Shown here in pieces: positions 13,285 to 39,200 of a DNA stretch of 39,200 nt. Made by a program: the position numbers and the translations under genes. A model generated the notes under the pieces. It had not been told where the DNA came from. It saw only the letters and a program-made list of their open reading frames with translations, and ran no database searches. Source of the DNA: a virus. How positions within the stretch are numbered: the first letter of the stretch is position 1; every line of letters starts with the position of its first letter. The DNA lies in IMG/VR virus record IMGVR_UViG_3300046642_000470, positions 1 to 39,200 of that record; one strand, written 5' to 3'.

Positions 13285-13304
13285 CCCGGAAGGGGTGACC
13301 GGCC

Positions 13305-13727
13305 ATGGCCAGGGTCTACGCGACCGCGGACGACTACCAGACCTACGCCGGGCAGACTCCGCCGGCGGACATCGGCGTCAAGCTCGCGGACGCCTCGCGG
13401 ATGCTCGACGCCGAGGTGTTCCGGCTCTGCTACTACCAGGCCGACCCGGACACCGGCCAACCCACCGTCACGGCCGTGGCCGAGGCGTTCCGCGACGCCA
13501 CATGCGCGCAGGCACAGTGGTGGATCGGCCTCGGCGACTCCCTCGGTGCGGACGGCGCCGGCTGGAACGAGGTGCGCATCGGCACGGTGATGATGCGCCG
13601 CCCCGATACGGCGATCTCCGGCGCGGACTCCGCAGCCCGCGAGGTCGCGCCGAAGGCGTGGGACGCGCTCCAGTCGCCCGACCTGCACCCGGACGTGTTC
13701 CGGCTCGGCATGGTGGTGGGCTGGTGA
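13305..13727 (+). CDS. Head-tail adaptor (gp6-like connector)
   Basis: 140 aa, ATG after AAGGGGTGA. A four-helix pattern opens with YATADDYQTYAG and KLADASRMLDAEVFRLCYY, matching gp6/gp15-type connector proteins that begin with the Y.T..DY motif. The C-terminal half has a WDALQSPDLHP segment. The protein should form the ring that extends the portal. Position and length agree with the family. Confidence 0.8.
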   Translation: MARVYATADDYQTYAGQTPPADIGVKLADASRMLDAEVFRLCYYQADPDTGQPTVTAVAEAFRDATCAQAQWWIGLGDSLGADGAGWNEVRIGTVMMRRPDTAISGADSAAREVAPKAWDALQSPDLHPDVFRLGMVVGW

Positions 13728-14038
13728 ACATCCCCGGATGGCTACTCCGCCACACGGTCACGATCGAGCCGTACCTCGGCGCCACCGCGTACGGGCCGAA
13801 GTACGGGCCACCGGTCGCCGTTGAGGGCTTCCTCGACGAGCAGACCCGGATGGTACGGGCGGCCGACGGCACACAGGTGTCGTCAACCTCGACGTTCTGG
13901 CCGCGCCTCGACACCACGGCGCCCGCGCAGTCGCGTGTCACGCTGCCGGACGGCCGTGTCACGTCGGTCATCGCCGCGCTACGGCGCGACGGTGGCGGCC
14001 TGCCGGTGCCGTCGCACCTTGAGGTGCAGCTCAAGTAG
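13724..14038 (+). CDS. Head-tail stopper
   Basis: 104 aa from a GTG in a GTGA overlap with the adaptor gene. Short beta-barrel-like protein with LLRHTVTIEPYLGATAYG at the start and LPDGRVTSVIAALRRDGGG near the end, the layout of gp16/SPP1-type stopper proteins (phage_H_T_join). It closes the head until the tail attaches. The neighbours on both sides are other connector genes. Confidence 0.75.
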   Translation: MNIPGWLLRHTVTIEPYLGATAYGPKYGPPVAVEGFLDEQTRMVRAADGTQVSSTSTFWPRLDTTAPAQSRVTLPDGRVTSVIAALRRDGGGLPVPSHLEVQLK

Positions 14039-14047
14039 GGGGCGGCC

Positions 14048-14398
14048 GTGCCGCAGACCGCACGCCTTGACTGGCAGGGCCGCCGGATCTTCGGCGGCCG
14101 CTTTCAGCGCGTCGCAGCCGCGGGCCTGACCAGGGCCCTGGAACACGGCCTCGGCGTCTCCAACCAACACGTGCCACTCGACGAGGGCACCCTCGAACGG
14201 TCCGGCAAGGTCATCGTGAGCGGCCTCAACGGCGCGATCTCCTACGACACCCCGTATGCCCGCCGGCAGCACGAGGAACTGACCTGGAAACACCTGCCGG
14301 GCCGGAACGCGAAGTACCTGGAAAACGCCATGAACACGGAGGCTGACATCATGCTCCAACTCATGGCCGTGAGCTTCCGGGAGTGGCTGCATGGCTGA
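14048..14398 (+). CDS. Tail completion protein (HK97 gp10-like or minor capsid)
   Basis: 116 aa from a GTG. The stretch VPLDEGTLERSGKVIVSG, then ISYDTPYARRQHEE and NAKYLENAMN, is the usual pattern of head-tail joining/tail completion proteins: a PxDTGxLxxS-like loop, YAxxxHE and a final helix. The gene overlaps the next one by 8 nt. Its role is to complete the neck. Confidence 0.8.
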   Translation: MPQTARLDWQGRRIFGGRFQRVAAAGLTRALEHGLGVSNQHVPLDEGTLERSGKVIVSGLNGAISYDTPYARRQHEELTWKHLPGRNAKYLENAMNTEADIMLQLMAVSFREWLHG

Positions 14399-25057: not shown

Positions 25058-25810
25058 TCAGAGGTCGACGGCGAACTCAACCACGGTCGCGTCACCTCTG
25101 CGGACGATCGGGTGTGCGACCTCGACGACGCGGCCCGCGGCGAGGTGCCGCCGGGTGAATCGGACGACGGGCACGGCGGCGCCGATGTGCAGTGTCTCCG
25201 CCTCGGCCGGCGTGGGCATGCCCACGGTGAACGCCTCGGTGATCCTGTCGACGACGATGCCGAGTGTGGCGAGCTGCGCCCGAGTGCCGCCCGGCCAGGG
25301 CTCATTGATGGGGTCGGCGACGGGCGTGCCGCCCACGTCCGACCAGCGCACGTAGCTGGTGGACATCTGCGAGGGCTGATCGTTGTCGTAGAACACGAAG
25401 TGCCGTGCGAGCAGGGGCAGGCCCGGCTCATCCTCGAACAGCGCGGCCAAGTTGGGGCCCGCCTTGATCTGCTCGAACCGCTTGTCGAGCCGGTACTCGC
25501 TCCATCCGATGCCCTGGTCGCGGGTGAATGCGGTCTGCGGCTGGCCGCCGGGCGGCGTCCGGTAGCGGTCGGCGGCGAGTCGGTGCACGGGCGGTCGCTC
25601 GCGTACGACGGTGCCCGCGCGGGTGCGCGACTCGACCAGGCCCTCACCGCGCAGGAGGCCGACGGCGTTGCGGGCGGTCGTCTCGCTGACGCCGTACGTG
25701 GCGCACAGCTCGGGCAGGGTAGGCAGGCGGTCGCCGGGCCGCAGGGCGCCGCTGGTGATCTGGTCGCGCAACTCGGCCGCGATGCGCAGGTACTCGGGCC
25801 GCTCAGCCAC
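25058..25810 (-). CDS. GntR/HutC-family transcription regulator with UTRA domain
   Basis: 250 aa. Residues 1-72 are a GntR winged helix: PEYLRIAAELRDQITSGAL, RPGDRLPTLPELCATYGVS and ETTARNAVGLLRGEGLVESR contain the expected Pro, Leu and Arg positions. Residues 90-245 are a UTRA ligand-binding domain (APNLAALFEDEPGLPLLARH-like strand, RFTRRHLAAGRVVEVA near the end). I choose GTG 25810 because GGAGGG lies 8 nt upstream; the GTG at 25819 overlaps that site. The gene is divergent from the 25955 cassette, with three 14-bp operators between. GntR regulators of this branch also control conjugative elements in Streptomyces. Confidence 0.92.
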   Translation of the reverse strand: MAERPEYLRIAAELRDQITSGALRPGDRLPTLPELCATYGVSETTARNAVGLLRGEGLVESRTRAGTVVRERPPVHRLAADRYRTPPGGQPQTAFTRDQGIGWSEYRLDKRFEQIKAGPNLAALFEDEPGLPLLARHFVFYDNDQPSQMSTSYVRWSDVGGTPVADPINEPWPGGTRAQLATLGIVVDRITEAFTVGMPTPAEAETLHIGAAVPVVRFTRRHLAAGRVVEVAHPIVRRGDATVVEFAVDL

Positions 25811-25841
25811 GCGCGCCACCCTCCGGAGTGATCGGCTCGGA

Positions 25842-25855
25842 TTCTGTACTCACAT
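25842..25855. promoter_or_regulatory. Operator 1 of the GntR divergent region
   Basis: TTCTGTACTCACAT, 11 of 14 positions matching the consensus TTCTGTACTCAGAA defined by the two other copies. It lies 32 nt upstream of the GntR start, close to where leftward transcription should begin, so binding here would give autoregulation. Confidence 0.65.
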
Positions 25856-25869
25856 ATTGCGTGACGCTC

Positions 25870-25898
25870 TTGACCCACGCCAAGCTGCGCGTGATTCT
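25870..25898 (+). promoter_or_regulatory. Candidate promoter of the ATPase-like cassette
   Basis: TTGACC (25870-25875) and GATTCT (25893-25898) at 17-nt spacing. The -10 overlaps operator 2, as expected for repression by steric exclusion. Matches to the consensus are partial. Confidence 0.45.
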
Positions 25899-25908
25899 GA
25901 GTACAGAA
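25895..25908. promoter_or_regulatory. Operator 2 of the GntR divergent region
   Basis: TTCTGAGTACAGAA, whose reverse complement is exactly TTCTGTACTCAGAA; TTCTG and CAGAA form the symmetrical arms. Its centre is 53 bp from that of operator 1 and 21 bp from that of operator 3, both near whole numbers of helical turns. Confidence 0.75.
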
Positions 25909-25915
25909 CGCAGCT

Positions 25916-25929
25916 TTCCGTACTCAGAA
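25916..25929. promoter_or_regulatory. Operator 3 of the GntR divergent region
   Basis: TTCCGTACTCAGAA, 13 of 14 positions identical to the consensus. It lies 25 nt before the start of the ATPase-like gene, downstream of the presumed promoter, so it could block elongation or loop with operator 1. Confidence 0.7.
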
Positions 25930-25954
25930 CGCTACGCATTCGAGGGACGCCCCC

Positions 25955-27730: not shown

Positions 27731-29359
27731 TCAGGATGGGACGGCCGTCTCCCATGGGTCCGGCTCCCACAGGGGGTGGATCTCGATGTGCACGGTGCGG
27801 CTGCGGTGCGCCTGGCGGGTGCACGTCACCCGGCGGACGAGCTTGCGCAAGATGGCGTTTCGCTCCCCCGGTTCCATGGCGATCCAGCCGTCGGCGATGG
27901 ACAGCAGCAGCGGCGCATAGTCGACGGCCTGCGGTTGCGCTGCCTGCTCGGCCGCAGCGTTGAGCGCGGCCGTCACGGCGGCCTGCTGCTGCCGGATGCG
28001 GTCGCGGGCCGCCTCGTACTCGCCCGGCCCCCAGTCGTCCGGGTCGGTGGCGCGCTGCACACGCAGGTTGGCGAGCGCTGCGGCGTGCCGGGCGGACTCG
28101 GCCTGTAGCCGCTCGACCTCGGCGCGGGCGCGGGCCCGGTCGTCTACAGCCGGCGCGGCCTGCTCGGCGGAGCGCAGCTCGCGGGACGCCTCGGCGTGCT
28201 GCCGTAGCCACGTCTGCACCTCATCCTCGAGGACGGCGCGCTGCACCCACACGCCCGCGGCGCAGACGCTCGTGCCGGCGTGGGCGCGGGCGCCGCACAT
28301 GTAGGCGTAGCCGAGCACCTGCGCGCCGCGGCGGCGGGCGCTGGTTGCGCCCGCGTCGCCGCGGCAGGTTCCGCACCGTACGAGACCGGTGAGCGTATAG
28401 AGGGGTACGCGTGCGCGTGGCGCGCGGGCGCGGTTGTCGGCGCGGTGCTCCTGGTACTGCTCCCACGTCTCCGGGGTGATCAGCGCGTCGTGGGCACCAT
28501 CAATGTGCGTCCACCTCGAGCACCGGCCGCCGGCCGCGGTGTAGTCGCAGCCGCATTCGGGGTCGTGGACGCGCAGGAGGCCGGCGGCAAAGCCGGAGTC
28601 GAGGTACCGGCGCAGGCTGTCTGCCTGGTACAGCTCGTCGCGGCGGGTGCGGAGGCCGAGGGTGTTGATCCGTTCGGCGAGCGCTCCGTACCCGGCTCCG
28701 GCCAGCTTGCGCGTGTAGAGATCGGCGACAACTTCGCCGTGGTCGGGGTGCGGTTCGTACCACTCGCGTTGGAGAATCCACTCCCCCGGGTGTTGGGGGT
28801 CCGGCAGGCGCCGCGGGTGCCAGATGTAGCCGAGGCGTCGGCCGCCGGTGGCTGGCAGGCCGAGCGCGCGTCGCCAGGCGTGTGTGTCTTTCCACTGCTC
28901 GCCGGCGCGGTCCGACTCGAACACCGCGAGGTCGAACAGGATGGCGCGGTTGAACTTGCCGACGGCCGTGGTGGCGTCGAAATCCTCGGTGGCGCTGGCC
29001 AGTTCGCCGCCGGCGTGGCGCAGGCGGCCGAGGTTGACGGCGATGCCGAGGTCGTTGCGGCCGAATCGGCTGTACTTCCAGACGGCGATGCCGCGGGCTT
29101 CGCGCCGCTCGCATGACTCGATGCCGCGCATGATCTTGCGCTTGAAGTTTCGCCCGGTGGCGTCCAGGTCGATGATCCATGCCACGATGCGGCGCCGGGT
29201 GCGGGCGGCCCATGCCTCGATGGCGGACCGCTGTAGCTCGGGGCTGATCTTCTCTTCGCGCCAGGTGGACACCCGGATGTAGCCGATCCAGGGTTCCCAG
29301 TCGTCGTCTGCGCTGTGCAGCGTGGGTCCGCGTAGGGCGGGCGGCACGTCGGTGGTCAC
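27731..29359 (-). CDS. int: Large serine integrase
   Basis: 542 aa. The resolvase domain begins WIGYIRVST with catalytic S31 (R29 adjacent); IDLDATGRNFKR and WKYSRFGRN give the conserved Asp, Gly and Arg residues (R98, R101), and FDLAVFESDRAGE the long helix start. A recombinase domain follows, then a zinc ribbon (LVRCGTCRGDAG, later YMCGARAHAGTSVCAAG) and a coiled-coil C-terminal domain. It inserts phage DNA at attB without host factors. The GTG start overlaps the upstream gene's stop (GTGA on the minus strand), so it is made from the same transcript as the membrane protein and probably the repressor. Confidence 0.95.
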   Translation of the reverse strand: MTTDVPPALRGPTLHSADDDWEPWIGYIRVSTWREEKISPELQRSAIEAWAARTRRRIVAWIIDLDATGRNFKRKIMRGIESCERREARGIAVWKYSRFGRNDLGIAVNLGRLRHAGGELASATEDFDATTAVGKFNRAILFDLAVFESDRAGEQWKDTHAWRRALGLPATGGRRLGYIWHPRRLPDPQHPGEWILQREWYEPHPDHGEVVADLYTRKLAGAGYGALAERINTLGLRTRRDELYQADSLRRYLDSGFAAGLLRVHDPECGCDYTAAGGRCSRWTHIDGAHDALITPETWEQYQEHRADNRARAPRARVPLYTLTGLVRCGTCRGDAGATSARRRGAQVLGYAYMCGARAHAGTSVCAAGVWVQRAVLEDEVQTWLRQHAEASRELRSAEQAAPAVDDRARARAEVERLQAESARHAAALANLRVQRATDPDDWGPGEYEAARDRIRQQQAAVTAALNAAAEQAAQPQAVDYAPLLLSIADGWIAMEPGERNAILRKLVRRVTCTRQAHRSRTVHIEIHPLWEPDPWETAVPS

Positions 29360-29700
29360 TGGTCTGCGGTCCTCTCCGTGTTGCTGATGGATCGGAGGTG
29401 TCCACGCGCGTAGCTGTTGGGCGCGTCGGCGCCCCCGTCGGGCGGGGTGAGGAGGCCGAGGGCGGCGTGTGCGAGGCCCGTGCGGTAGCCGTCGGCGTGT
29501 GCGGCGGCGAGCTGTTCGGGGGTGACGGCCGCTGCACGACGTGTTTGTGAGGCGCAGATGAGGGGGCACGAGGCGAACATCATCACCAGCCCGCCGCGAA
29601 GGATCATCTTCGGTATGGCGGCGTCGAGGCCGGCGACGGTGGCAAGGATGCCTGCGGTTGCCGCGGCAATGCTGATGATGTTGAGCGTGCGGGTGTGCAA
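29356..29700 (-). CDS. Small membrane protein upstream of integrase, 114 aa
   Basis: It starts at a TTG 6 nt after GGAGGG. Residues 8-25 and 31-50 are hydrophobic (ISIAAATAGILATVAG and KMILRGGLVMMFASCPLIC), two likely membrane spans; the remainder, with PEQLAAAHADGYRTGLAHAA, is a soluble helix. The stop overlaps the integrase GTG. It lies between repressor and integrase, where some temperate phages keep superinfection-exclusion genes; that role is only inferred from position. Confidence 0.7.
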   Translation of the reverse strand: MHTRTLNIISIAAATAGILATVAGLDAAIPKMILRGGLVMMFASCPLICASQTRRAAAVTPEQLAAAHADGYRTGLAHAALGLLTPPDGGADAPNSYARGHLRSISNTERTADQ

Positions 29701-29716
29701 GGGGTGCCCTCCGTTG

Positions 29717-30181
29717 TCAGTCGGCCCGCTTTCTGTCGGACCGTTCCTGCTGTACCGCGCGCGCGGCCTCGACTTGGGCGACGAACAGTCGGATCGCGGT
29801 GGGGTCCACGATGCCGAGGTCGCGGGCTGCGTCCTCTGGGGTGATCGGTGGGCGGTCGATCGGGGGCGCTGCCTGTGCGGCGTTGAGTTCGTCTGCGGTG
29901 AGAACGCCGGCTCGTACGAGTAGCTCGGGGAAGGGCAGGCCGAGCGTTTCGGCGATGCGGCGCAGGTTCTCGGGGTCGGGGTTGAGCGCGGTGCCGGTGA
30001 GAATCCGGCTGATGGTGGCCTGGCTGAGGCCGGTTTGTTCAGCGAGTCGGCGTTGGCCGCCGCCTCGTGCGGTGAGGTTGTAATCGCGCTCGATCATGCG
30101 GTCGTAGAGCCAGGCCGCGAAGCGCTGCGCGGTGGCACGGCGGTCGGCGCTGGACAGGCGGGAGGGCTGCGTCTGTTCCAT
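29717..30181 (-). CDS. XRE-family repressor, probable lysogeny regulator
   Basis: 154 aa. Residues 20-85 contain an HTH_3 domain: RFAAWLYDRMIERDYNLTA, then RRLAEQTGLSQATISRILTG and NLRRIAETLGLPFPELLV, with the recognition helix QATISRILTG. The C-terminal half is a separate helical region (PEDAARDLGIVDPTAIRLFV). I choose ATG 30181 rather than an upstream start because the TACATT -10 ends 7 nt before it, so the mRNA is probably leaderless. It heads the leftward operon repressor, membrane protein, integrase, and faces the rightward early genes. Best candidate for the immunity repressor. Confidence 0.85.
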   Translation of the reverse strand: MEQTQPSRLSSADRRATAQRFAAWLYDRMIERDYNLTARGGGQRRLAEQTGLSQATISRILTGTALNPDPENLRRIAETLGLPFPELLVRAGVLTADELNAAQAAPPIDRPPITPEDAARDLGIVDPTAIRLFVAQVEAARAVQQERSDRKRAD

Positions 30182-30185
30182 GCAA

Positions 30186-30206
30186 GAAATGTACCGCTCG
30201 TGGAAC
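30186..30206 (-). promoter_or_regulatory. Promoter/operator motif B, repressor gene
   Basis: On the minus strand this reads GTTCCACGAGCGGTACATTT plus C, with -10 TACATT at 30193-30188. It matches motif A at 18 of 21 positions, and the match extends upstream through ACGGTTG. The -10 lies 7 nt from the repressor ATG, placing the transcript start at or next to that codon. Confidence 0.65.
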
Positions 30207-30218
30207 ATCACCAACCGT

Positions 30219-30230
30219 GCGCGATCGCGC
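30219..30230. repeat. 12-bp perfect palindrome in the divergent region
   Basis: GCGCGATCGCGC is its own reverse complement. A second perfect palindrome, CGACGCGTCG, lies at 30284-30293. Both are in the 256-bp gap between divergent regulator genes and could be protein-binding sites, but GC-rich palindromes of this size also occur by chance here. Confidence 0.35.
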
Positions 30231-30303
30231 CATTGCGTAATCCTGACACTGCATCATCGTCACCCCCCGTCATTGACCTGCGACGACGCGTCGAGGAAAG
30301 CCC

Positions 30304-30332
30304 AGTCTCCGCGTGAAGGTTTTGTGTGTCAA
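30304..30332 (-). promoter_or_regulatory. Second leftward promoter candidate
   Basis: On the minus strand, TTGACA (30332-30327), 17-nt spacer and GAGACT (30309-30304). It would produce a repressor transcript with a leader of about 115 nt, unlike the leaderless one from motif B; that arrangement resembles separate establishment and maintenance promoters. The -10 is a weak match. Confidence 0.35.
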
Positions 30333-30376
30333 CCAGGTACAGCCTGACATTTTCATCGCCGCGAACGGTTGTGCTC

Positions 30377-30397
30377 GTTCCACGTGTGGTACGTTTC
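30377..30397 (+). promoter_or_regulatory. Promoter/operator motif A, early rightward operon
   Basis: GTTCCACGTGTGG then TACGTT (30390-30395) preceded by TGG, an extended -10. The part GTTCCACGTGTGGTAC is nearly symmetrical (GTnCCACnnGTGGnAC), as expected for a dimeric repressor. The transcript should start near 30402, and its first bases contain the hairpin TGCAAG-CAAGC-CTTGCA (30403-30419). Confidence 0.7.
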
Positions 30398-30437
30398 TTT
30401 TGTGCAAGCAAGCCTTGCAGGGAAGGAACGTACTGCC

Positions 30438-30650
30438 ATGTACGACAGAACCAAGCTGCGCGAGGCCGCGGCCCGCTGCGGGGACACCAACAGCAACCGC
30501 GTCGCCATCCGGCTGGGCATCCCCCGGACGACTGCGTTCCGGCTGTGGAAGGGCACGGCCGCCCCGTCCGCCACTGTCGCCGCCGCCGTGCAGCGCGCGT
30601 ACTGCGTGCCCACGGCTGAGCTGCTGATCGCGCTGGAGTCGGCGGCGTGA
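30438..30650 (+). CDS. Cro-like HTH protein, 70 aa
   Basis: ATG behind GGGAAGGA. Residues 5-60 form an HTH: TKLREAAARCGDTNSNRVAI, RLGIPRTTAFRLWKGTAAPS and AVQRAYCVPTAELLIAL have the Cro/C1 helix order with PRTTAFRLWKG as recognition helix. It is the first gene of the rightward early operon and is divergent from the XRE repressor, the classical place of Cro. It probably opposes the repressor at motifs A and B. Confidence 0.75.
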   Translation: MYDRTKLREAAARCGDTNSNRVAIRLGIPRTTAFRLWKGTAAPSATVAAAVQRAYCVPTAELLIALESAA

Positions 30651-30814
30651 GCGGCCACCCGACGCGTGAGGAGTGCTGGACGGCGGCCTACGCGGTCGCC
30701 GAGCGGGCGCTCGCCCGTATCGCCCGGGACCGCGCGACGGGCCGGCTGGCGCCGGCGGTTGCCGCGCACCTCGACCGCATCGCGCCGGTGCAGCGCACCG
30801 CGCAGGCGGCTTGA
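30647..30814 (+). CDS. Hypothetical protein, 55 aa
   Basis: GTG in a GTGA overlap with the Cro-like gene. A single amphipathic helical protein (ECWTAAYAVAERALARIARD, then a GRLAPAVAAHLDRIAP end). No recognisable domain. The overlap and position in the early operon are the evidence for it. A terminator-like hairpin follows. Confidence 0.55.
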   Translation: MSGHPTREECWTAAYAVAERALARIARDRATGRLAPAVAAHLDRIAPVQRTAQAA

Positions 30815-30832
30815 TCCCCCCACACACGACAA

Positions 30833-30860
30833 CGGCCGCCCGGGTGCCACCGGACGGCCG
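30833..30860 (+). terminator. Hairpin in the early operon
   Basis: CGGCCGCCCGG and CCGGACGGCCG pair with one mismatch around GTGCCA, 19 nt after a stop codon. No T-run follows. It may act as an attenuator, limiting expression of the recombination genes relative to the Cro-like gene. Confidence 0.5.
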
Positions 30861-30889
30861 CCAGATCAACCCACAGAGAGGGGCTGAAC

Positions 30890-31327
30890 ATGAACGAGAC
30901 GCAGCCTATCAGCGGGGCGCAGGCCGCCGCGCTGATCCTGGCCCTGGTGCCCGCGGTGGCCCGGGTGGAGACGTACCCGCAGTGGTCGGACGCCACGGGC
31001 CCGGCGGTCCGCCGGCAGCGCGTGATCCTGCACGACGCCGACGGCCGGATCATCGGGGCCGACAGGGCGGCGCACACCGCGGCGCTGCGGTCGCTGCGCC
31101 GGATGGACGGCGGCGACTGGGACCGGCCGCAGTCGTTCGACGTGGCGTCGGGCGTGCTGTCGCTGGCGATGCCGGTGGTGGTGTCGCTGCCCGAGGCGCT
31201 GGCGGACCTGCCGCGGTCCCCGTGGCTGTCGCCGGACGAGGCGTATACGGCGGGCCGCACGGTCGCGGTGGCCGCCCCGGTGTCGGCACTGCCGGCCGCC
31301 CCGGAGATGCCCGGCGGTGCCTGGTGA
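30890..31327 (+). CDS. Hypothetical protein, 145 aa
   Basis: ATG behind GAGAGGGG. Residues 1-75 look like a mixed alpha/beta domain (ALILALVPAVARVETYPQWS, RRQRVILHDADGRIIGADRA); the end is Pro/Ala-rich and less ordered. I do not recognise the family. It is first in the block leading to the ERF gene, with GTGA overlap to the next gene. Confidence 0.65.
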   Translation: MNETQPISGAQAAALILALVPAVARVETYPQWSDATGPAVRRQRVILHDADGRIIGADRAAHTAALRSLRRMDGGDWDRPQSFDVASGVLSLAMPVVVSLPEALADLPRSPWLSPDEAYTAGRTVAVAAPVSALPAAPEMPGGAW

Positions 31328-31629
31328 TCGCCCTGCCGTTCCTGCGCCGCCGCCCGGCCACCGTGCCGACGGCCCTGCCCGACCAGCTCGCCGCGGTGCT
31401 CGACGAGGTCGCCGAGGCGTACGCGGCCGCGCGGCCCCCGGTGTCCTGCCTGCTCGCCAACCACGCGCGGCGCGTCGCCGCGCTCGACGCCGCGGTGATC
31501 GACCCGCACGCCGAGCAGTGGCAGCTCGCGTTCCTCGCCGCCGAGGCCGAGGACACGCGCGCCGCGCTGCTCGACCTCTCCCCCACTGCTCTCGCCATCG
31601 CCCGCACGACCCCGGAGACGACCGAATGA
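31324..31629 (+). CDS. Hypothetical protein, 101 aa
   Basis: GTG start overlapping the preceding stop. Mostly helical, with LPDQLAAVLDEVAEAYAAAR and SCLLANHARRVAALDAAVID. No motif is assigned. The stop overlaps the ERF ATG (ATGA), so it is probably translated together with the annealing protein. Confidence 0.65.
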   Translation: MIALPFLRRRPATVPTALPDQLAAVLDEVAEAYAAARPPVSCLLANHARRVAALDAAVIDPHAEQWQLAFLAAEAEDTRAALLDLSPTALAIARTTPETTE

Positions 31630-32813
31630 CCGTGACGACCCTCCCGAACCGCGCGGAGACCCGCGGGCCCGTCGCCATCGACGTACCCGCGGCCCCCGCT
31701 GCCGATGTCGTGTACGAGCCCGCGCCCGCGGGAACGCCCGCCGACGCCCCGCGGATCTTCGCCGCTATCAACGCCGTGATGCGCGACGCCATGCCGGTCG
31801 GCAAGGACCAGCGCAACGTCTCGCAGAACTACGCGTTCCGCGGCATCGACGACGTGATGTCGGCGATGGCGGGGCCGTTCCGCTCGCACGGCGTGTTCAT
31901 CCTGCCGCAGGTGGCCGAGCAGAAGCAGGACCGCGACGGCAAGATGACGCGGACGCTGATCACGATGCGCTACCGGGTGTACGGCCCGGCGGGTGACTGC
32001 CTGATCGCCGAGGTGCCGGGCGAAGCGTCCGACTTCGCCGACAAGGGGATGAACAAGGCGCAGTCGGCGGCGCTCAAGTACCTCCTGTTCGCGCTGTTCA
32101 TGCTGCCGGTCGACGGCCGCAGCATCGACGACGGCGACCGCGATCACCCGACGGCGCCGGACGAGGAGCGGCCGAAGCGCAGCCGACGACGCCAGGCAGA
32201 GCCCGCCCAGCAGCAGGAGCAGCAGGCTTCCGCGCCGCCGTCGCGCGACTACCTCGCGGAGGCTGTTGCAGCCGCCGGCGAGGAAGCGTTCAAGGTCGTC
32301 GTCGCCGAGGCGCGCGCGGCCGGGGCGCCGGGCCCGTACGTGGCGATGTTGGACGACATCGGCGAGGCGCACCGTGCTCCGGATGCCGCCGCCGTACGGA
32401 AGCTGCACGCGGCGCTCAAGGAGAAGAAGGCGCCGGCCGATCACCTGGCACGGATCGCCGACATCGGCAGCCGCAAGCCGGGCGCTCGGGGCGCGCGGAA
32501 GGCGGCTGCGCGGCCGCCGCAACAGGATGACGCGTCGGGCCGTGAGGCTGGGGGCGCCGACTACACCGAGCCGGTGCAGGGCAGCGCTCGGCCGCCGGAG
32601 CCTGCCACGCTGCCGGGCGCGCCGGCCGGGCAGGGCGACCGCCTCGACGCGATCAAGGCCCTCTACGACGCGGGCGCCGCCAACGGGCTGTCCGAGGTGG
32701 AGACCAGGCAGGCACTGACGGAGCGCACCGGGTGCGCCATCGGTACGGCGGCGTACAGCGCGATCGTGTCCCTGGCGGCCGACCTCCAGCAGGCCGCCCG
32801 GAGCAAGCGGTGA
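31626..32813 (+). CDS. ERF-family single-strand annealing protein
   Basis: 395 aa. Residues 38-160 match the ERF superfamily: APRIFAAINAVMRDAMPVGK, NYAFRGIDDVMSAMAGPF and GMNKAQSAALKYLLFALFML are its conserved segments. ERF proteins anneal complementary strands and support phage recombination and genome circularisation. Residues 175-330 are a disordered Gln/Arg/Ala-rich linker; residues 335-395 are a small helical domain ending AADLQQAARSKR that may bind partners. It sits between small early genes and a possible partner at 32810. Confidence 0.9.
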   Translation: MTVTTLPNRAETRGPVAIDVPAAPAADVVYEPAPAGTPADAPRIFAAINAVMRDAMPVGKDQRNVSQNYAFRGIDDVMSAMAGPFRSHGVFILPQVAEQKQDRDGKMTRTLITMRYRVYGPAGDCLIAEVPGEASDFADKGMNKAQSAALKYLLFALFMLPVDGRSIDDGDRDHPTAPDEERPKRSRRRQAEPAQQQEQQASAPPSRDYLAEAVAAAGEEAFKVVVAEARAAGAPGPYVAMLDDIGEAHRAPDAAAVRKLHAALKEKKAPADHLARIADIGSRKPGARGARKAAARPPQQDDASGREAGGADYTEPVQGSARPPEPATLPGAPAGQGDRLDAIKALYDAGAANGLSEVETRQALTERTGCAIGTAAYSAIVSLAADLQQAARSKR

Positions 32814-33376
32814 GCGCCGAGCGGCCGCAGCCGGCCGCCACCGTCGCCGACGCCATCACCCGCGAGGCCGCGCTCAAGGCCCTGCTCGACGCGATCGACG
32901 GCGAGTACAAGACGGCCCGCGCCGCCGTGCAGCAAGCCCTTGACGAGCAGGCCACGGCGACCGGCGCCAAGAGCTTCGACGCGCTGCTGCCGGGCGGCGT
33001 CAAGGTCGGAACGGTCACCCTGACGGGCGGCGAGACGGCCGCCCGCGTGGTCGACGAGGCCGAGTTCATCGAGTGGGTGCGCGCGTCGTACCCGTCGGAG
33101 ATGACGGTGCGCGTTGTGCGGGAGGTCCGGCCGGCGTGGCTGACGGCGTTCCTCGGTCAGATGACCGCGGCGGGGGCCGCCGTTGACACGGCGACTGGCG
33201 AGGCCGTGCCCGGTGTGGAGATCAAGCCGTCCCGGGCCCGGTCGCACAGTGTGCGGTTCGGCAAGACGGGGCGGGCGGATGTGGCCGAGGCGTGGCGTGC
33301 GGGCGGCCTGGCGTCGCTGGTGCTGCCCGCGCTCGCCCCGCCCGCGCCGGACGCCGAGGGCGGTGAGGCGGCATGA
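32810..33376 (+). CDS. ERF-linked hypothetical protein, 188 aa
   Basis: GTG in a GTGA overlap with the ERF gene. Residues 10-40 are helical (REAALKALLDAIDGEYKTAR), then SFDALLPGGVKVGTVTLTGG and EFIEWVRASYPSEMTVRVVR form an alpha/beta region. Proteins of this layout often follow annealing proteins in actinophages; no nuclease motif is visible, so I do not call it an exonuclease. It ends with a four-base overlap with the next gene. Confidence 0.7.
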   Translation: MSAERPQPAATVADAITREAALKALLDAIDGEYKTARAAVQQALDEQATATGAKSFDALLPGGVKVGTVTLTGGETAARVVDEAEFIEWVRASYPSEMTVRVVREVRPAWLTAFLGQMTAAGAAVDTATGEAVPGVEIKPSRARSHSVRFGKTGRADVAEAWRAGGLASLVLPALAPPAPDAEGGEAA

Positions 33377-33864
33377 GCGTCGCTATCGACCTGTTCGGCG
33401 CCGTGTACACCACGCAGGGCGGCACCCGGTACCACGCGGACCGGGCGTGCTACGCGCTGGCGAACGGCCGTAGCACGCAGGCGTACCGGGCGGGCGAGGG
33501 ACTGTACGGCGAGGGGTTGTACGGCGCGCAGTGCCTCGATGGCCTGTACCCGCTGGTGCGCCGGTCAACGATCAGCGCGCAGCAGTTCAGCTACACGGCG
33601 TGCCTGGTGTGCGTGCCGCCCGCCGAGGCGAACCGGCCGCTGCCGTTCGTGACGTTCACGTACGGGCACGAGCCGGTCGCCGGCTACCTGCCCGACTGGC
33701 TCGGCGAGTTCACCGTGTGCGCTCGCTGCGAGGCCCGGCGGTCGCAGACCTGGTTGGACCCCGAGACCGACGACGTGCACGTGTGGAGGTTCGAGAGCCC
33801 CGTGCCGTGGCCGTGCACGTCGGCCCTGGTACTCGGCCTCGCGCCCCGCCGGGACGCGTCGTGA
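33373..33864 (+). CDS. Cys-containing hypothetical protein, 163 aa
   Basis: ATG in an ATGA overlap. The chain has ACLVC near residue 78 and VCARC near residue 118, two CxxC pairs of the sort that hold one zinc ion between them. The N-terminal part (YTTQGGTRYHADRACYALA) is a short beta/alpha domain. Zinc-dependent nucleic-acid binding is possible. No enzyme motif is seen. Confidence 0.65.
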   Translation: MSVAIDLFGAVYTTQGGTRYHADRACYALANGRSTQAYRAGEGLYGEGLYGAQCLDGLYPLVRRSTISAQQFSYTACLVCVPPAEANRPLPFVTFTYGHEPVAGYLPDWLGEFTVCARCEARRSQTWLDPETDDVHVWRFESPVPWPCTSALVLGLAPRRDAS

Positions 33865-34004
33865 GCGCCCTCGTCTGGGCTGCCGCCTCCGCCGTCGTCT
33901 GCCTCGCGGCAGTCGCGGCGGGGGCCGCCCTCGGCGCCACATACGACCAACTCGCCGACGCCGTCCGCCCCTACATCCGCCCGACGGGAGCACACCGCCG
34001 ATGA
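33861..34004 (+). CDS. Tiny membrane protein, 47 aa
   Basis: GTG overlapping the preceding TGA. Residues 3-27 are one hydrophobic segment rich in Ala and Val (LVWAAASAVVCLAAVAAGAA), followed by a short charged tail. The overlaps on both sides argue for translation. Role unknown. Confidence 0.6.
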   Translation: MSALVWAAASAVVCLAAVAAGAALGATYDQLADAVRPYIRPTGAHRR

Positions 34005-34378
34005 AGCCCATGACGCCCGAGCAGCGCGGCGAGGCCCGGTTCTACGTGCCGCCCGGCCAGAACCCCGCCGCGCCCGAGCTGGTCGCGCACGTCGCCTGCG
34101 GCGCCCGCGCGCTGGAGATCACCACCACCGACCCGGACACGATCAAGCTCGCCCGCGACATGACCGCCGTCATCTGGCGCCTGCTCACCACCGAGCAGCA
34201 GGCCGAGGCCCTGCGGAGCGTGCTCGCCGAGGCCGTCGCCCTCGCCGCCGACCTCCCCGACGACGGACTCACCGCCGGCGACCTGCTGCGACTGCTTACC
34301 GCCCGCGGCCTCGACCTCACGCAGGACATCGCCGACGCCGAGACGCTGCGCGAGGCTCACGCCCTGGCAGGCGTGTGA
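34001..34378 (+). CDS. Hypothetical protein, 125 aa
   Basis: ATG in an ATGA overlap. Beta strands (ELVAHVACGARALEITTTDP) then helices (TEQQAEALRSVLAEAVALAA, AGDLLRLLTARGLDLTQDIA). No recognisable family. Its end overlaps the methyltransferase start. Confidence 0.65.
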   Translation: MKPMTPEQRGEARFYVPPGQNPAAPELVAHVACGARALEITTTDPDTIKLARDMTAVIWRLLTTEQQAEALRSVLAEAVALAADLPDDGLTAGDLLRLLTARGLDLTQDIADAETLREAHALAGV

Positions 34379-35157
34379 TGGGCGCCGCCGCGCTGCTCGC
34401 GCTCGCCGAGCGGCCCGCGCCGCCCGTGACCCCCGGGCAGGCCGCCATCGGCGAGCCCGTGCGGCACAGCACGCTGCCCCTGCCCGAGCGGCCGTGGAAC
34501 GGCGGCACCGTGCTCGATCTGTGCTGCTGCGCCGGCGGCGCGGGCATGGGGTACTGGCTCGCGGGCTGGAACGTCGTGGGCGTCGATATCCGCCCGCAGC
34601 CGAACTACCCGTTCCCGTTCGTCCAGGCCGACGCCATTGAGTACGTGCGGACCTTCGGCGCCGCCTACGACCTGCACCACGGCTCGTGGCCATGCCAGCA
34701 CCGGGCCGCGATCACCAAGGGCACCAACCGGCATCTACAGCACCGCTATCCGGACCTGCTTCCCGCAGGCCGTGAGGCCATGCTCAGCACTGGCCAGCCG
34801 TACGTCATCGAGACCACCGGGTGCCGTCCCGACGTGGTGTTGTGCGGCGCGTCGTTCGGGCTGCCGATCCTGCGGCACCGCCGCATCGAGGTGCGCGGCT
34901 GGTTCCCTCTCGCGCTGCCGCACGCCCCTCACCGCGGTCGAGTCCGCGGCCACCGTCACGGCAAGCGCTACGACGGCCCGTATCTCGCCGCGTACGGCGA
35001 CGGCGGCGGCAAGGCCACCGTGCCCGAGATGCAGGCCGCCATGGGCATCACGTGGACCGACGTGCGCCACGAACTCACCGAGGCCATCCCGCCCGCCTAC
35101 ACACAGTTCCTCGGCGAGCAGGCCGCCGAGCAGATTCTCACCAAGGAGTCATCATGA
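34378..35157 (+). CDS. C5-cytosine DNA methyltransferase-like protein
   Basis: 259 aa; a GTG one codon upstream is equally possible. Motif I is LDLCCCAGGAGMGYWLAG followed by VVGVDIRP. Around residue 103 SWPCQ stands where the family has PPCQ, retaining the catalytic Cys. VIETTG replaces the usual ENV segment, keeping Glu, and CGASFGLPILRHRRIEVRGW matches the conserved FGxxxxRHR region. It lacks a separate long target-recognition domain and resembles short phage-borne enzymes that protect DNA from host restriction. No cognate nuclease is adjacent. Confidence 0.8.
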   Translation: MGAAALLALAERPAPPVTPGQAAIGEPVRHSTLPLPERPWNGGTVLDLCCCAGGAGMGYWLAGWNVVGVDIRPQPNYPFPFVQADAIEYVRTFGAAYDLHHGSWPCQHRAAITKGTNRHLQHRYPDLLPAGREAMLSTGQPYVIETTGCRPDVVLCGASFGLPILRHRRIEVRGWFPLALPHAPHRGRVRGHRHGKRYDGPYLAAYGDGGGKATVPEMQAAMGITWTDVRHELTEAIPPAYTQFLGEQAAEQILTKESS

Positions 35158-35810
35158 CCATGATTGCCGCCCGCCAGTTCCGCACGATGCTCGCGCAGGT
35201 CACCCCGCACATGGGCAGCGACGACACGCTGCCCGTCCTCACCGCCATTCACCTCGAGTGCGGGCGCGGGAACCTGTTCGCCGTCGCCACCGACCAGTAC
35301 ACGATGGGCATCGCCCGCGCCACCGTCGACAGCCGCGACAACTGGACCGGCCGTATCCAGCGCGAGGACATGAAGACCGTCACCGCGTGGCTGCGCACCG
35401 CGCCCGAAACGATCGAGATCACCGGCATCCGCGACGGCGACACCGTGACCGTCACCCTCGCCCACGACGGCAGCACGCTCCGCCTGGCGGCCGGCGCGCA
35501 CGGCGAGCTGCCGAAGTGGCGCGACCTGGTCAAGGGCGCCGTGACCGCCAAGGCCGCCGCCGTCGACCTCAATGCGTTCAACACGGCGTTCCTGGCCCGC
35601 TTCAAGGCCGCCGGGACCGTGCTCCACACGTGGCAGGGCGGACCCGGCAAGCCGCTGCTGTTCACCGACGCCGAGGCGACGTTCGTCGGCATTCAGATGC
35701 CCGTACGCACGGACGAGCGCCAGGTGTCGCGCGACAGCCTCGCCGAGAAGTGGACCCGGCACCTCCCCGCCGCACCCGCCGATCCGGTCGCCGACGCCGC
35801 CGCCGCCTGA
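35154..35810 (+). CDS. Short beta-clamp (DnaN)-like protein
   Basis: 218 aa, ATG overlapping the methyltransferase TGA, AGGAG 5 nt before. FRTMLAQVTPHMGSDDTLPV with LTAIHLECGRGNLFAVATDQ is the characteristic opening of a DNA polymerase III beta domain, and later GELPKWRDLV fits a second clamp domain. Bacterial beta clamps have three such domains in about 370 residues; this has room for two. It may form a trimer or partner with the host clamp. It lies directly before the replication initiator. Confidence 0.75.
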   Translation: MTMIAARQFRTMLAQVTPHMGSDDTLPVLTAIHLECGRGNLFAVATDQYTMGIARATVDSRDNWTGRIQREDMKTVTAWLRTAPETIEITGIRDGDTVTVTLAHDGSTLRLAAGAHGELPKWRDLVKGAVTAKAAAVDLNAFNTAFLARFKAAGTVLHTWQGGPGKPLLFTDAEATFVGIQMPVRTDERQVSRDSLAEKWTRHLPAAPADPVADAAAA

Positions 35811-35821
35811 CCCCCTGATCC

Positions 35822-35858
35822 CCCGCGGCGGGCCCGGCTCCGAGCCGCCCGCCGCGGG
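35822..35858 (+). terminator. Strong hairpin between clamp and initiator genes
   Basis: A perfect 12-bp stem, CCCGCGGCGGGC with GCCCGCCGCGGG, and a loop able to pair internally. It lies 11 nt after the clamp-like gene stop and 18 nt before the initiator ribosome-binding site. It could terminate or attenuate between the clamp and initiator genes. Confidence 0.65.
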
Positions 35859-35888
35859 TGTCCGCACCACCAGACAGGAGAACGACCG

Positions 35889-36794
35889 TTGAGCGTCACC
35901 GCCATGCAGTGGGTGTGGGACAAGGCCAACGCCCGCGGCAACGCGCGGCTCGTGCTGCTCGCCGTCGCCGACAAGGCGCCCGGCCCTGACTGCACCGCCC
36001 GCATCGGCACCACCGAGATGGTGCGGCGCGTCAACGGCGCCCGATCGTCGGTCATCGTCGCCATCGACAAGGCCATCGAGAGCGGCGAACTGACCGTCAT
36101 CGAGGCCGCCGCCGGCAGTCGCGCAGCGCTCTACCAACTGCCCATGGCCGTCGGCTACTCGCGGCTTACCGGTCCGGAAACCGGACCCCTAGGCGGTGAA
36201 CCGGACCGGTCCGGAAACCGGACCCCTAAGCCCTCTCGGTCCGGAAACCGGACCCCTAACCCGGTGCCTACCGGTCCGGAAACCGGACCCCTAGACCGGA
36301 CCCCCGAAATGGCTTTGTGGTCCGAAAACCGGACCCCTAGGGGTCCGGAAACCGGACCCCATCACTCACCCAATGAAGGAGTGAGTGAAGGAGTGGTTGA
36401 GGCGCGCGGCCCCGAACGGCGCACCGCAGTCATTCCCGAGTTCGCCCGCCCCCTGGTCGACACCCTCACCGCTTCCGGCGTCGTCGTGAAGTGGTCGCTC
36501 GGCGAAGGCGAGTGGTTCTCCCTCGACCACCTGATCCAGCGCAGCGGCGCCGACATGCTCGCCGCCGAAGCCGTCAAGGTCGCCGCCCGCACCACCGTCT
36601 CGCACGCCCGGTACTTCCTCCGCGCCTGGCGCGACCTGCCGCCCGCACCCGCCGCCGGAACCGCCCCCGTCATCCCGCAGCACGCCGGCCCCAACGTCGT
36701 GCCGTTCGACGCCACACAGCCGCGCCGCAGCCGCGCCCAACGCACAGCCGACGAACTCGCCCTCATCCTCGCCAGAGAGGCAGCCCAGCAGTGA
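35889..36794 (+). CDS. Replication initiator with internal iteron array
   Basis: 301 aa from a TTG, 8 nt after AGGAG. Residues 1-85 are a winged-helix domain of the phage replisome-organiser type (VTAMQWVWDKANARGNARLV, CTARIGTTEMVRRVNGARSS). The region encoded by 36171-36362 is low complexity (GPETGPL and SGNRTP repeats) because it contains six DNA iterons. A C-terminal domain with EGEWFSLDHLIQRSG follows. Lambda O has the same layout: DNA-binding N-terminus, iterons inside its gene, C-terminal recruitment domain. It probably binds its own gene to start replication. Confidence 0.85.
   Translation: MSVTAMQWVWDKANARGNARLVLLAVADKAPGPDCTARIGTTEMVRRVNGARSSVIVAIDKAIESGELTVIEAAAGSRAALYQLPMAVGYSRLTGPETGPLGGEPDRSGNRTPKPSRSGNRTPNPVPTGPETGPLDRTPEMALWSENRTPRGPETGPHHSPNEGVSEGVVEARGPERRTAVIPEFARPLVDTLTASGVVVKWSLGEGEWFSLDHLIQRSGADMLAAEAVKVAARTTVSHARYFLRAWRDLPPAPAAGTAPVIPQHAGPNVVPFDATQPRRSRAQRTADELALILAREAAQQ
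36171..36362. repeat. ori: Iteron array, probable origin of replication
   Basis: Six near-identical copies, each with the 17-bp palindrome GGTCCGGAAACCGGACC followed by CCTA, begin at 36171, 36208, 36238, 36273, 36319 and 36342. Copy 5 has one changed base (GGTCCGAAAA) and copy 6 ends CCAT. Half-sites CCGGACC occur at 36201 and 36296. Distances between starts are 37, 30, 35, 46 and 23 bp. A flanking 8-bp inverted repeat, TCACTCAC with GTGAGTGA, lies at 36362-36388. Confidence 0.85.
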
Positions 36795-37486
36795 ACCGCC
36801 AACAAATCGCAGCACTCATCGCCTACGCCTCGGGCCTCGACCCGCGCACCGCCAAGACCGGCGACGACCTCGCCGACCAGCTCGACCAGTGGGAAGAGCT
36901 GCTGCGCGACGTGCCGCCCACCGCACCGCACCCCACCGGCCGCCACTGGAACGCCGGCGAGGTCGTACGCCACCACATCGCCACCTCGCCCTACCCGATC
37001 AAGCCGTCAGACGTGAGCCGACCGTGGCACACGTTCAAGGCCGACGTACTCGGCCGCCACACCGGCACGTTCGAGCCCGGCGCACACCCCGAACTCGACC
37101 CCGACGACGAAGCCGGCTACCGCGCCGCACTCGCCGCCGACCGCGCCGCCGTCGCCGCCGGCACCGCCCCGCCCGTCACCGTCCGCGAACTCACCGGCGG
37201 CCCCTCCCCCGAAGTCGCCCGCCGCCTCGCCGCCCTCGGCGAGTACATGCCCCGCACCGTGGCCCGCCAGCTCGCCGAGTACCGGCCCCAGCGCGCCGAG
37301 CGGGAACGCCTCGCCATCGCCGACCTGCCCGACGCCCTCAACGTGCCCTGCCCATACGAGCAGTGCCGACGCCCCGTCAACCGCCCCTGCCAGAACCGCC
37401 GCGGCGCCGACCGCAACACGCCACACCCGAGCCGCATCGACGCAGCCACAGCCCACCACAACGCCCACCGGGAGCAGACCGCATGA
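36791..37486 (+). CDS. Zinc-motif protein coupled to the initiator, 231 aa
   Basis: GTG in a GTGA overlap with the initiator. Residues 185-215 contain CPYEQCRRPVNRPCQNRRGA and then HPSR, the C-x4-C-x7-C...HP.R pattern of small phage zinc fingers. The rest is helical. Phage P-type helicase loaders lie in this position, but no loader motif or Walker box is visible, so that role is only a possibility. Confidence 0.65.
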   Translation: MNRQQIAALIAYASGLDPRTAKTGDDLADQLDQWEELLRDVPPTAPHPTGRHWNAGEVVRHHIATSPYPIKPSDVSRPWHTFKADVLGRHTGTFEPGAHPELDPDDEAGYRAALAADRAAVAAGTAPPVTVRELTGGPSPEVARRLAALGEYMPRTVARQLAEYRPQRAERERLAIADLPDALNVPCPYEQCRRPVNRPCQNRRGADRNTPHPSRIDAATAHHNAHREQTA

Positions 37487-37953
37487 AGCACGCCAAGGCC
37501 AACATCAGGGGCGGCCACAAGCACACCCCCCGCACCAGCGGCGGCAACCACAACTTCCGCGAGTACAAGATCACCGGCACGTGGCCCGGCAGCACCGACC
37601 GCGCCGCCGTCAAGACGATGCGCGACCGCGCCCAAGCCAAGCGCGCCGCCCGCACCATGGCCGAGCAGGGCGCATACGTCGTCGCCGAGATCCACGAACG
37701 CCACGGCCTCTGGCGCGTCCTGTACGAGATCGACGGCCCCGCCCTCGTCGCCAAGCGCGACGCCGAGCAGCGCGCCGCCGAGCTCGCCGAGGACGAGCGC
37801 ATCCGCGCCGAACTCCACCGCCGCGCCGAAGCCCGCCGCGCCGCCGACAAGACGCAGCGCGACCGCGCGCAGGCCGCCGCGCTCATGGTGCAACCGCCCG
37901 TCCCCCGCACCCCGGCGCAGCGCGGCGCACGCCACACCGCAGGCCAGCGATGA
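37483..37953 (+). CDS. Basic helical hypothetical protein, 156 aa
   Basis: ATG in an ATGA overlap. It starts MKHAKANIRGGHKHTPRTSG, strongly basic, with a central strand region (YVVAEIHERHGLWRVLYEID) and a long charged helix from residue 85 (RDAEQRAAELAEDERIRAEL). It resembles DNA- or RNA-binding accessory proteins. No specific family. Confidence 0.6.
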   Translation: MKHAKANIRGGHKHTPRTSGGNHNFREYKITGTWPGSTDRAAVKTMRDRAQAKRAARTMAEQGAYVVAEIHERHGLWRVLYEIDGPALVAKRDAEQRAAELAEDERIRAELHRRAEARRAADKTQRDRAQAAALMVQPPVPRTPAQRGARHTAGQR

Positions 37954-38132
37954 TCCCCCCGGCCGCCGCCGCCGTCATCGAGGCCGTACTCACCGACGCC
38001 CAACGCGCAGGCGTCAACGACCCCGGCGTGATCGCCCGATGGGCCGCTGACGCCCTCGCAGGCGCCGGATGGACGCTCACCCCGTCCCGCACCCCCGGCG
38101 CCCCGCAGACGGCCGCACAGCGCGCCGCATAG
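37950..38132 (+). CDS. Hypothetical protein, 60 aa
   Basis: ATG in an ATGA overlap. A helical, Ala-rich protein (AAAAVIEAVLTDAQRAGVND, then VIARWAADALAGAG). Family unknown. It is the last gene of the replication unit before promoter motif C. Confidence 0.6.
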   Translation: MIPPAAAAVIEAVLTDAQRAGVNDPGVIARWAADALAGAGWTLTPSRTPGAPQTAAQRAA

Positions 38133-38158
38133 ACCCCCGCCGAACAACTCGCAGCGAC

Positions 38159-38179
38159 GTTCCCCGTCTGATACGTTCC
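38159..38179 (+). promoter_or_regulatory. Promoter/operator motif C, HNH-SSB operon
   Basis: GTTCCCCGTCTGA then TACGTT (38172-38177), a TGn-extended -10, then CC. It matches motif A at 16 of 21 positions. The expected mRNA start near 38183 is at a perfect stem, CCGTGCAAG with CTTGCACGG (38182-38207), similar to the smaller hairpin in the leader of motif A. The HNH gene begins at 38255 behind AGGAGG. Confidence 0.6.
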
Positions 38180-38254
38180 ATCCGTGCAAGCAACATTCCT
38201 TGCACGGAACGACCGAGCCGCGCTCAGCCCTACATCCCGCAGGAGGTACGTCCG

Positions 38255-38725
38255 ATGCCCCGAGCTATCACGCCGGCCGCAGAGCGCTTCTGGGCAAAGA
38301 TCAACCTCGACGGCCCGACGCCCACCGAGGGAACGGCCGTCGGAGCCTGCTGGATCTGGACCGCGGGCCTACAGAGTTCCGGGTACGGGGCGTTCCACCC
38401 CGACAAGACGACGACCGTCCTCGCCCACCGCTACGCCTACGAGCAGGCCAACGGGCCCATCGCGGCCGGACTGGTCGTTGACCACCGATGCCGGAACCGC
38501 CAGTGCTGCCGCCCCTCGCACCTGGAGCCGGTGACGAACGAGGTCAACCTCGCGCGTGGCGCCGGATACGCCATCCGAAACGGCATGCGCAACGCGTGCA
38601 AGCACGGCCACGAGTACACGCCGGAGAACACCTACCGCGCCCCCGCGGGCGACATCCGATGCCGGACCTGCGCCCGCGAACGCGACCGCCGCAGGTCCGC
38701 AAAGACCACCACAAAGGCGGCCTGA
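38255..38725 (+). CDS. HNH endonuclease
   Basis: 156 aa, ATG behind [26 protein letters not shown] is the HNH_3 metal finger (D-H, N, H), preceded by [18 protein letters not shown], a common N-terminal element. Near the C-terminus CKHGHEYT and CRTCARER form a second, Cys-based ribbon. Phage HNH enzymes either assist packaging or act as mobile endonucleases. This one is separated from the terminase on the circular map by about 6.7 kb and is co-transcribed with SSB, so a recombination/replication role or a recent mobile insertion are both possible. Confidence 0.88.
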
Positions 38726-38727
38726 CC

Positions 38728-39200
38728 GTGAACGACACCACCATCACCCTGTGCGGCAACGCCGTAGACGACGCTGAGCTTCGTTTCACGCCGTCCGGCG
38801 CCGCCGTCGCCAACGTCCGTGTGGCCAGCACGCCGCGCCGCTTCAACAAGCAGACGAACGAGTGGGAGGACGGCGAGCCGCTGTTCCTCGGCGTCACCTG
38901 CTGGAAGCAGCACGCCGAGAACGTCGCCGAGACCGTGCGCCGCGGCATGCGCCTGATCGTCACCGGCCGCCTGACGCAGCGGCAGTACGAGGCCAAGGAC
39001 GGCACCAAGCGGTCGTCCTACGAGATCGCCGACGCCGAGATCGCCGTCTCGCTGCTGCACGCCACCGCCGCCATCACCAAGACCACCGGCCAGGGCCAGG
39101 GCCAGGGCGGACAGCGCGGCCAGCAGCAGCGCCCCCCGCAGCAGAACGGCGGCGGCTGGGGCACCGCGACCGGCGCGACCGGCGGCGACCCCTGGGCCAC
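38728..39200 (+). CDS. ssb: Single-strand DNA-binding protein, N-terminal part
   Basis: The GTG start, behind AAGG, gives [20 protein letters not shown], then [14 protein letters not shown] and [20 protein letters not shown], and [20 protein letters not shown], the conserved OB-fold strands of bacterial SSB. The tail is a Gly/Gln-rich linker. The frame runs off the window end at 39200 and continues at the beginning, finishing at 164. SSB protects single strands during replication and recombination and is downstream of HNH in the same unit. Confidence 0.95.
39074..39200. repeat. Terminal direct repeat, right copy
   Basis: Identical to 1-127. Removing one copy gives a circular sequence of 39,073 bp with an uninterrupted ssb gene. 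Confidence 0.97.

Follow-up and report, generated by a model that had tools for sequence, protein, structure and literature searches.

Does the immunity circuit of a temperate phage stop at its repressor and cro promoters, or does it extend to a second lytic operon? This question is raised by IMG/VR record IMGVR_UViG_3300046642_000470, a linear and probably incomplete 39,200-bp viral contig whose 3' end falls inside the gene for a single-stranded DNA-binding protein (SSB); the window analysed here is that whole contig. The virus is one of Streptomyces-type bacteria, and a second contig, IMGVR_3300046459_000509, is essentially the same phage. Its genes run in the order serine integrase, XRE repressor, Cro-like protein, ERF protein, replication initiator, HNH endonuclease and SSB, a content and order that match the temperate Streptomyces phages PapayaSalad, SV1, ToastyFinz, Tubberson and Darolandstone, which published papers place in actinophage cluster BC. 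A short motif stands at the promoters of the Cro-like gene (site A), the divergent repressor gene (site B) and the HNH-SSB operon (site C), and we consider it likely that the three copies are operators of the phage's own lysis-lysogeny switch. The kind of switch is already known, and the window's instance of it is previously undescribed.

The sequence GTTCCNCGNNNGRTACRTT occurs exactly three times in the window with no mismatches, at 30377-30395(+) for A, 30188-30206(-) for B and 38159-38177(+) for C. The original prediction had described three copies with GTTCC-CG and a shared -10 box, and both features proved exact at all three, with the coordinate of B off by at most 2 bases. It had further described a match of about 35 bp between A and B that took in an upstream ACGGTTG; by our count, made by eye, 27 of 35 bases agree from ACGGTTG through TTTCTT, but ACGGTTG, which is missing at C, is best read as the -35 element (GGTTGT/GGTTGG, with a 17-bp spacer) and not as part of the operator. 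The pattern common to A, B and C is GTTCC-N6-GRTAC plus the -10 box; in GTTCC-N6-GGTAC the two halves of the dyad are spaced by 11 bp, or one helical turn. GTTCC-CG keeps a constant distance of 13 nt to the -10 downstream of it and does not belong to the promoter elements. A matrix trained on six sites (A and B of the window phage and its two nearest relatives, C excluded) upheld C as a copy of the motif, placing it first among the untrained places of the window at 21.1 bits, against 12.0 for the next unrelated place and 17.4 for the best of 20 shuffled windows, with part of the score of C coming from promoter sequence, the extended -10 TGnTACGTT that it shares with A. The arrangement is that of a phage operator set: dyads overlap the divergent repressor and cro promoters, a helix-turn-helix (HTH) repressor and a Cro-like protein are encoded alongside, and the same site recurs at another lytic promoter, at C in the window and likewise in sister phages, and in SV1-type phages in part only. 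A large set of asymmetric, stoperator-type sites was not found, the window holding three sites only, all symmetric.

Could the motif be a mere promoter type, an extended -10 and its spacer suited to the host or a phage-modified RNA polymerase, with no operator role? A and C do carry TGnTANNTT, and in the family alignment, whose anchors were picked by eye from local alignments, the -10 shows the strongest conservation. We nonetheless regard this as very unlikely, as GTTCC-CG falls within the promoter spacer, the repressor gene's promoter has the motif too, a promoter would not be expected to show dyad symmetry, and, while the -10 stays, the shared elements vary from phage to phage but in concert within each one.

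Relatives were drawn from 46 viral contigs with a relative of the Cro-like gene and from named phages; 36 of them have both cro and HNH, and the regions preceding these two genes were compared. The mean similarity score of the two regions was 41 within a phage and 24 between phages; none of 10,000 permutations reached the observed sum (p=1e-4, a value inflated by the kinship of the phages), and the window ranked first among the 36 for this internal resemblance. The shared sequences are of several unrelated types (TGTCTCGGCAG, ATCCATGGATGG, TCTCGTGAAAC and TTTTGTGCAAG), each common to the two promoters of one phage, and the sharing runs from the -10 to about +12 and again from +16 to +22. The unit shared by A and C reaches some 30 bp further downstream than the original prediction had it. 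Recent duplication or gene conversion, free of functional constraint, would also leave a similarity that is local (about 55 bp) and confined to each phage. The resemblance, however, recurs in nearly all of the 36 phages at the same two places only, flanks are not shared, and the spacing differs between the two copies in many phages, and we hold such an origin to be extremely improbable.

Clade matrices, trained without the repressor start, were run over the complete genomes of five relatives, and cro and HNH took the first two ranks. The untrained repressor start scored 29.7 in ToastyFinz and 19.9 in Austintatious; the remaining ToastyFinz matches were reverse-strand shadows of the same sites or scored below 8, and across the five genomes nothing else was comparable except the cro-upstream dyad and reverse-strand shadows. 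Sixteen ToastyFinz-like phages have approximately TTCC-N6-GGA at the start site of cro, the repressor gene and HNH alike. Within the window's own subclade, the aligned sites indicate that the left half co-varies at A and B, as joint recognition predicts: GTTCC is found in the window and in relative L005 (A site AAACGTTCC-ACATGT-GGTACGTTT, also in L027; B site GTTCC-ATGCGC-GGTAC), while in L006 GTCTC replaces it at both A and B (B site GTCTC-ACGCGC-GGTAC). What can be read directly from the sequence is where the sites lie, that they are shared and co-vary, and how the genes are arranged. Because the site is shared here and at least 15 related phages have a site of their own in each of these three positions, a single protein made by the phage probably controls the three promoters.

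Sequence comparison supports a repressor circuit reaching HNH-SSB in the window phage and one sister group. The earlier proposal that one regulator's sites include HNH-SSB holds insofar as a phage-specific element joins cro and HNH in the 36 phages, and the repressor gene as well in the 16 ToastyFinz-like phages; it is not general in SV1-type phages. There, the dyad of the repressor promoter, TTTC-N6-GAAA, is repeated upstream of cro and was not found at HNH, and the start-site element common to cro and HNH is a different one; repressor control of HNH is therefore not generalisable to SV1-type phages. Several further points weigh against our interpretation. The right arm of the SV1-type start site is no closer to B than that of the other clade (4.8 vs 4.9 of 10), C is the weakest of the three dyads (right half GATAC), and only one lineage of the window's subclade is known to have C, since the contigs of L005 and L006 stop before HNH. 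The shared sites could partly reflect a common promoter type, and no binding or expression data for these phages were found in the open-access literature. Finally, the comparison drawn below with gp33, the repressor of mycobacteriophage BPs, is an analogy, because the window repressor has no specific homology to gp33 beyond the HTH (hhalign against gp33 of Angel, a BPs relative, gave a probability of 15% over the HTH stretch only).

The SV1-type arrangement also bears on whether Cro alone reads C, such that HNH-SSB would be shut down late in lytic growth and would be silent in lysogens merely for want of an activator. The SV1-type HNH site resembles the cro start site and not the repressor-promoter dyad, and the repressor gene has a Cro-like gene beside it in the window and in related loci. 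In the window and in ToastyFinz-like phages, however, the element is common to all three sites, B included, and we judge control by Cro alone to be unlikely. Among viral contigs, a search with GTGCAAGCAA-n-CTTGCA was too loose, returning at least 120 stretches, and a GTTCC-type pattern gave nine matches; among the matches listed for both, Cro/repressor occurred only in already known relatives.

A and C, and not B, share GTGCAAGCAA...CCTTGCA downstream of the -10 (30403-30419 and 38185-38204; 2 found against 0.00 expected), an element that seems better read as two tandem 12-bp (5-2-5) palindromes, P1 and P2, than as an RNA hairpin at +1. The hairpin was favoured at first as the main explanation, with A and C as a matched pair of early-lytic promoters, the hairpin as the selected feature (for mRNA protection or HK022 put-like antitermination) and GTTCC at C as incidental. 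Consistent with this, nearly all phages have a hairpin-forming dyad at this position in each of the two promoters (mean z -1.9), the duplex of right arm and third arm is stronger with own than with swapped sequences (-10.7 vs -6.2 kcal/mol, p=2e-4), and the predicted 5' end at C in the window is paired from +1. The arms vary widely with matched changes, giving 52 different 5' arms, and the hairpin of L006 is wholly different in sequence (GCCGGA-CAAACA-TCCGGC). The hairpin nevertheless lacks a strand signature: folding is no stronger for the transcribed strand than for its complement, and the count of G.U mismatches (24) does not exceed that of A.C (29). Moreover, tandem palindromes give a hairpin automatically, and their spacing is quantised and not free, with centre distances across the family of 16-17 or 20-22 and almost none between. 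This strand test and spacing lowered our estimate, and we now think the hairpin account quite unlikely. The put RNA of HK022 is about 70 nt long with two stem-loops (PMC9378689); the window resembles it in having a stem-loop near the start of two early transcripts and differs in having one short stem, without G.U bias and without an Rfam match. Across the family the P2 dyad peaks at a 2-bp gap, with a further peak at 6 bp in cro sites that coincides with the ribosome-binding GGAAGG. It is decidedly improbable, in our view, that the element has two roles, serving the prophage as a tandem DNA operator and then, after transcription, forming a hairpin at the 5' end of both early mRNAs; if true, a short sequence under joint selection would tie repression to lytic mRNA protection or altered termination.

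In 34 of 35 phages the repressor gene starts six bases after a TANNNT hexamer, and its mRNA is predicted to be leaderless there. Transcripts are predicted to start at 30402(+) for A, 30181(-) for B and 38184(+) for C, the A and C positions being so placed because they were calibrated on the leaderless repressor promoters. Scanning 28000-39200 for a sigma-70 consensus gave no match, which is unsurprising for weak GC-rich promoters. In relatives, the leaderless repressor gene opens with ATG GAA C or ATG AAA AAC, and the right half of the operator overlaps its codons 2-3; operator changes are therefore tied to the repressor N-terminus.

How, then, would the proposed switch operate? A dimer or dimer pair of an XRE-type protein would bind the 16-bp dyad GTTCC-N6-GGTAC; we infer that the binder is the 154-aa repressor, probably also the 70-aa Cro-like protein, and that control is negative. 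Because the dyad overlaps the -10, its half-sites 11 bp apart, binding would block polymerase at the cro promoter, the repressor's leaderless promoter and the HNH-SSB promoter. At A and C only, the two further 12-bp palindromes, lying across and just downstream of the start, would probably form a second, cooperative operator. In a lysogen both lytic operons would be off, and the repressor would set its own level. Such a switch would place a replication/recombination operon (HNH, SSB) within the immunity circuit and would let a short sequence predict which phages share immunity. A cluster BC genome announcement inferred immunity from gene order alone (PMC12243558); the present analysis offers a testable map of promoters, starts and operators for this whole temperate Streptomyces group.

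The repressor and the Cro-like protein are both predicted to have HTH/XRE folds, the AlphaFold2 model of the latter showing five helices and its Foldseek matches being XRE HTH domains. PDB sequence searches gave generic HTH proteins only, and a scan of genome contigs with the repressor alignment found no relative. Homology to BPs gp33/gp34 went unsupported when tested with the Angel proteins.

Among known systems, the geometry is matched by that of BPs (cluster G), whose gp33 binds two 12-bp palindromes, 5 or 8 bp apart, as mapped experimentally; one of the BPs operators occupies the PR spacer, from -35 to -10, and gp33 controls several dispersed promoters (PMC4557955). The family's centre distances of 16-17 or 20-22 fit those spacings. 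The window likewise has divergent repressor and early lytic promoters, an operator between -35 and -10, tandem palindromes of about 12 bp with spacers of 5 bp (A) and 8 bp (C), its own palindromes being imperfect, and, on our reading, dispersed promoters under one repressor. It differs in having a serine integrase, three promoters including that of HNH-SSB, and another operator sequence (CGACATATGTCG is that of BPs), and integration-dependent immunity belongs to BPs; a BPs-like tandem-operator geometry is here seen with a repressor not specifically related to gp33. Exact CGACATATGTCG, the BPs 12-bp half-site, lies upstream of cro in two Streptomyces-type viral contigs, L033 (2630-2641) and L032 (2794-2805), and in no other of 71 loci.

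Repressor sites number 18-30 and are dispersed in phiC31 and L5 (PMC4557955). Like phiC31, the window phage is a temperate phage of Streptomyces-type hosts in which a single repressor would act at more than one place, but its sites lie at three promoter regions only. The phiC31 repressor belongs to a different family. Like the stoperators of Cluster A (L5), the window's sites reach outside the immunity region; unlike those asymmetric, numerous and elongation-blocking sites, they are dyads on promoters only. Cluster K ESAS, whose function is unknown, are also inverted repeats with a variable 4-13-bp spacer upstream of early genes, but there are many per genome, at translation starts (PMC3203893), whereas here there are two per genome, at transcription starts.

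Table 1. Features of the window that bear on the proposed switch, with positions in the 39,200-bp contig.
Feature	Position	Strand	Basis
XRE-family repressor, 154 aa	29717..30181	-	Pfam HTH_3 6.9e-11; PHROG 3949 4.8e-24; AlphaFold2 pLDDT 88
Second, weaker dyad TTTC-TTGCAT-GGAA over -10/start codon of repressor promoter	within 30176..30193	-	
Repressor promoter B: -10 TACATT 30193-30188, six bases, then ATG 30181-30179	30176..30193	-	
Putative operator O_B, dyad GTTCC-ACGAGC-GGTAC, in repressor promoter	30191..30206	-	sequence, matrix
cro promoter A: -35 GGTTGT 30367-30372, 17-bp spacer, extended -10 TGgTACGTT, hexamer 30390-30395	30367..30395	+	
Putative operator O_A, dyad GTTCC-ACGTGT-GGTAC, in cro promoter spacer, overlapping -10	30377..30392	+	sequence, matrix
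Tandem palindromes at A: P1 CTTTT-GT-GCAAG, P2 CTTGC-AG-GGAAG, 5-bp spacer, centres 17 bp apart	30397..30425	+	
Potential RNA hairpin at A: UGCAAG-CAAGC-CUUGCA at +2	within 30397..30425	+	
Cro-like protein, 70 aa, first gene of early operon	30438..30650	+	PHROG 1702 E=1.3e-10; AlphaFold2 pLDDT 83
Putative operator O_C, GTTCC-CCGTCT-GATAC, HNH-SSB promoter	38159..38174	+	matrix trained without C
HNH-SSB promoter C: extended -10 TGaTACGTT, hexamer 38172-38177, without clear -35	38169..38184	+	
Tandem palindromes at C: P1 CATCC-GT-GCAAG, P2 CTTGC-AC-GGAAC, 8-bp spacer, centres 20 bp apart	38179..38210	+	
Potential RNA hairpin at C: GUGCAAG-CAACAUUC-CUUGCAC at +1	within 38179..38210	+	
HNH endonuclease, 156 aa, first gene of second lytic operon	38255..38725	+	Pfam HNH_3 5.3e-16; PHROG 826 2.7e-53
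SSB, runs off contig	38728..39200	+	Pfam SSB 8.6e-25; PHROG 44 2.8e-37

Annotation of the same region in two relatives departs from these features. In ToastyFinz (L020, KY676784; 25684-25930) the Cro-like gene at 25739-25930 was left unannotated. The repressor gene is annotated there from 25764, a long way upstream of its leaderless start near 25460, and this annotation overlaps the cro promoter. Alderaan (L071, MT711975) is a relative that has lost its integrase (PMC7650747). It carries at about 13300-14060 an unannotated repressor frame with an intact HTH and a diverged C-terminus, which retains the leaderless start, and its A, B and C sites are all kept intact. RNA-seq of Alderaan infection is public (GEO GSE213718, PMC10117723), so the predicted starts are testable without new phage work.

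Directly upstream of the HNH promoter, the SV1-type phages L019, L021, L022, L057, L067 and L069 have an inverted repeat, GGGGGGCG...CGCCCCCC, which is perhaps the terminator of the cro operon. Within the replication-initiator gene of the window (35889-36794), positions 36157-36363 hold six iterons GGTCCGGAAACCGGACCCCTA (core ACCGGACCCC seven times), an array that resembles a lambda-O-style origin embedded in its own initiator gene.

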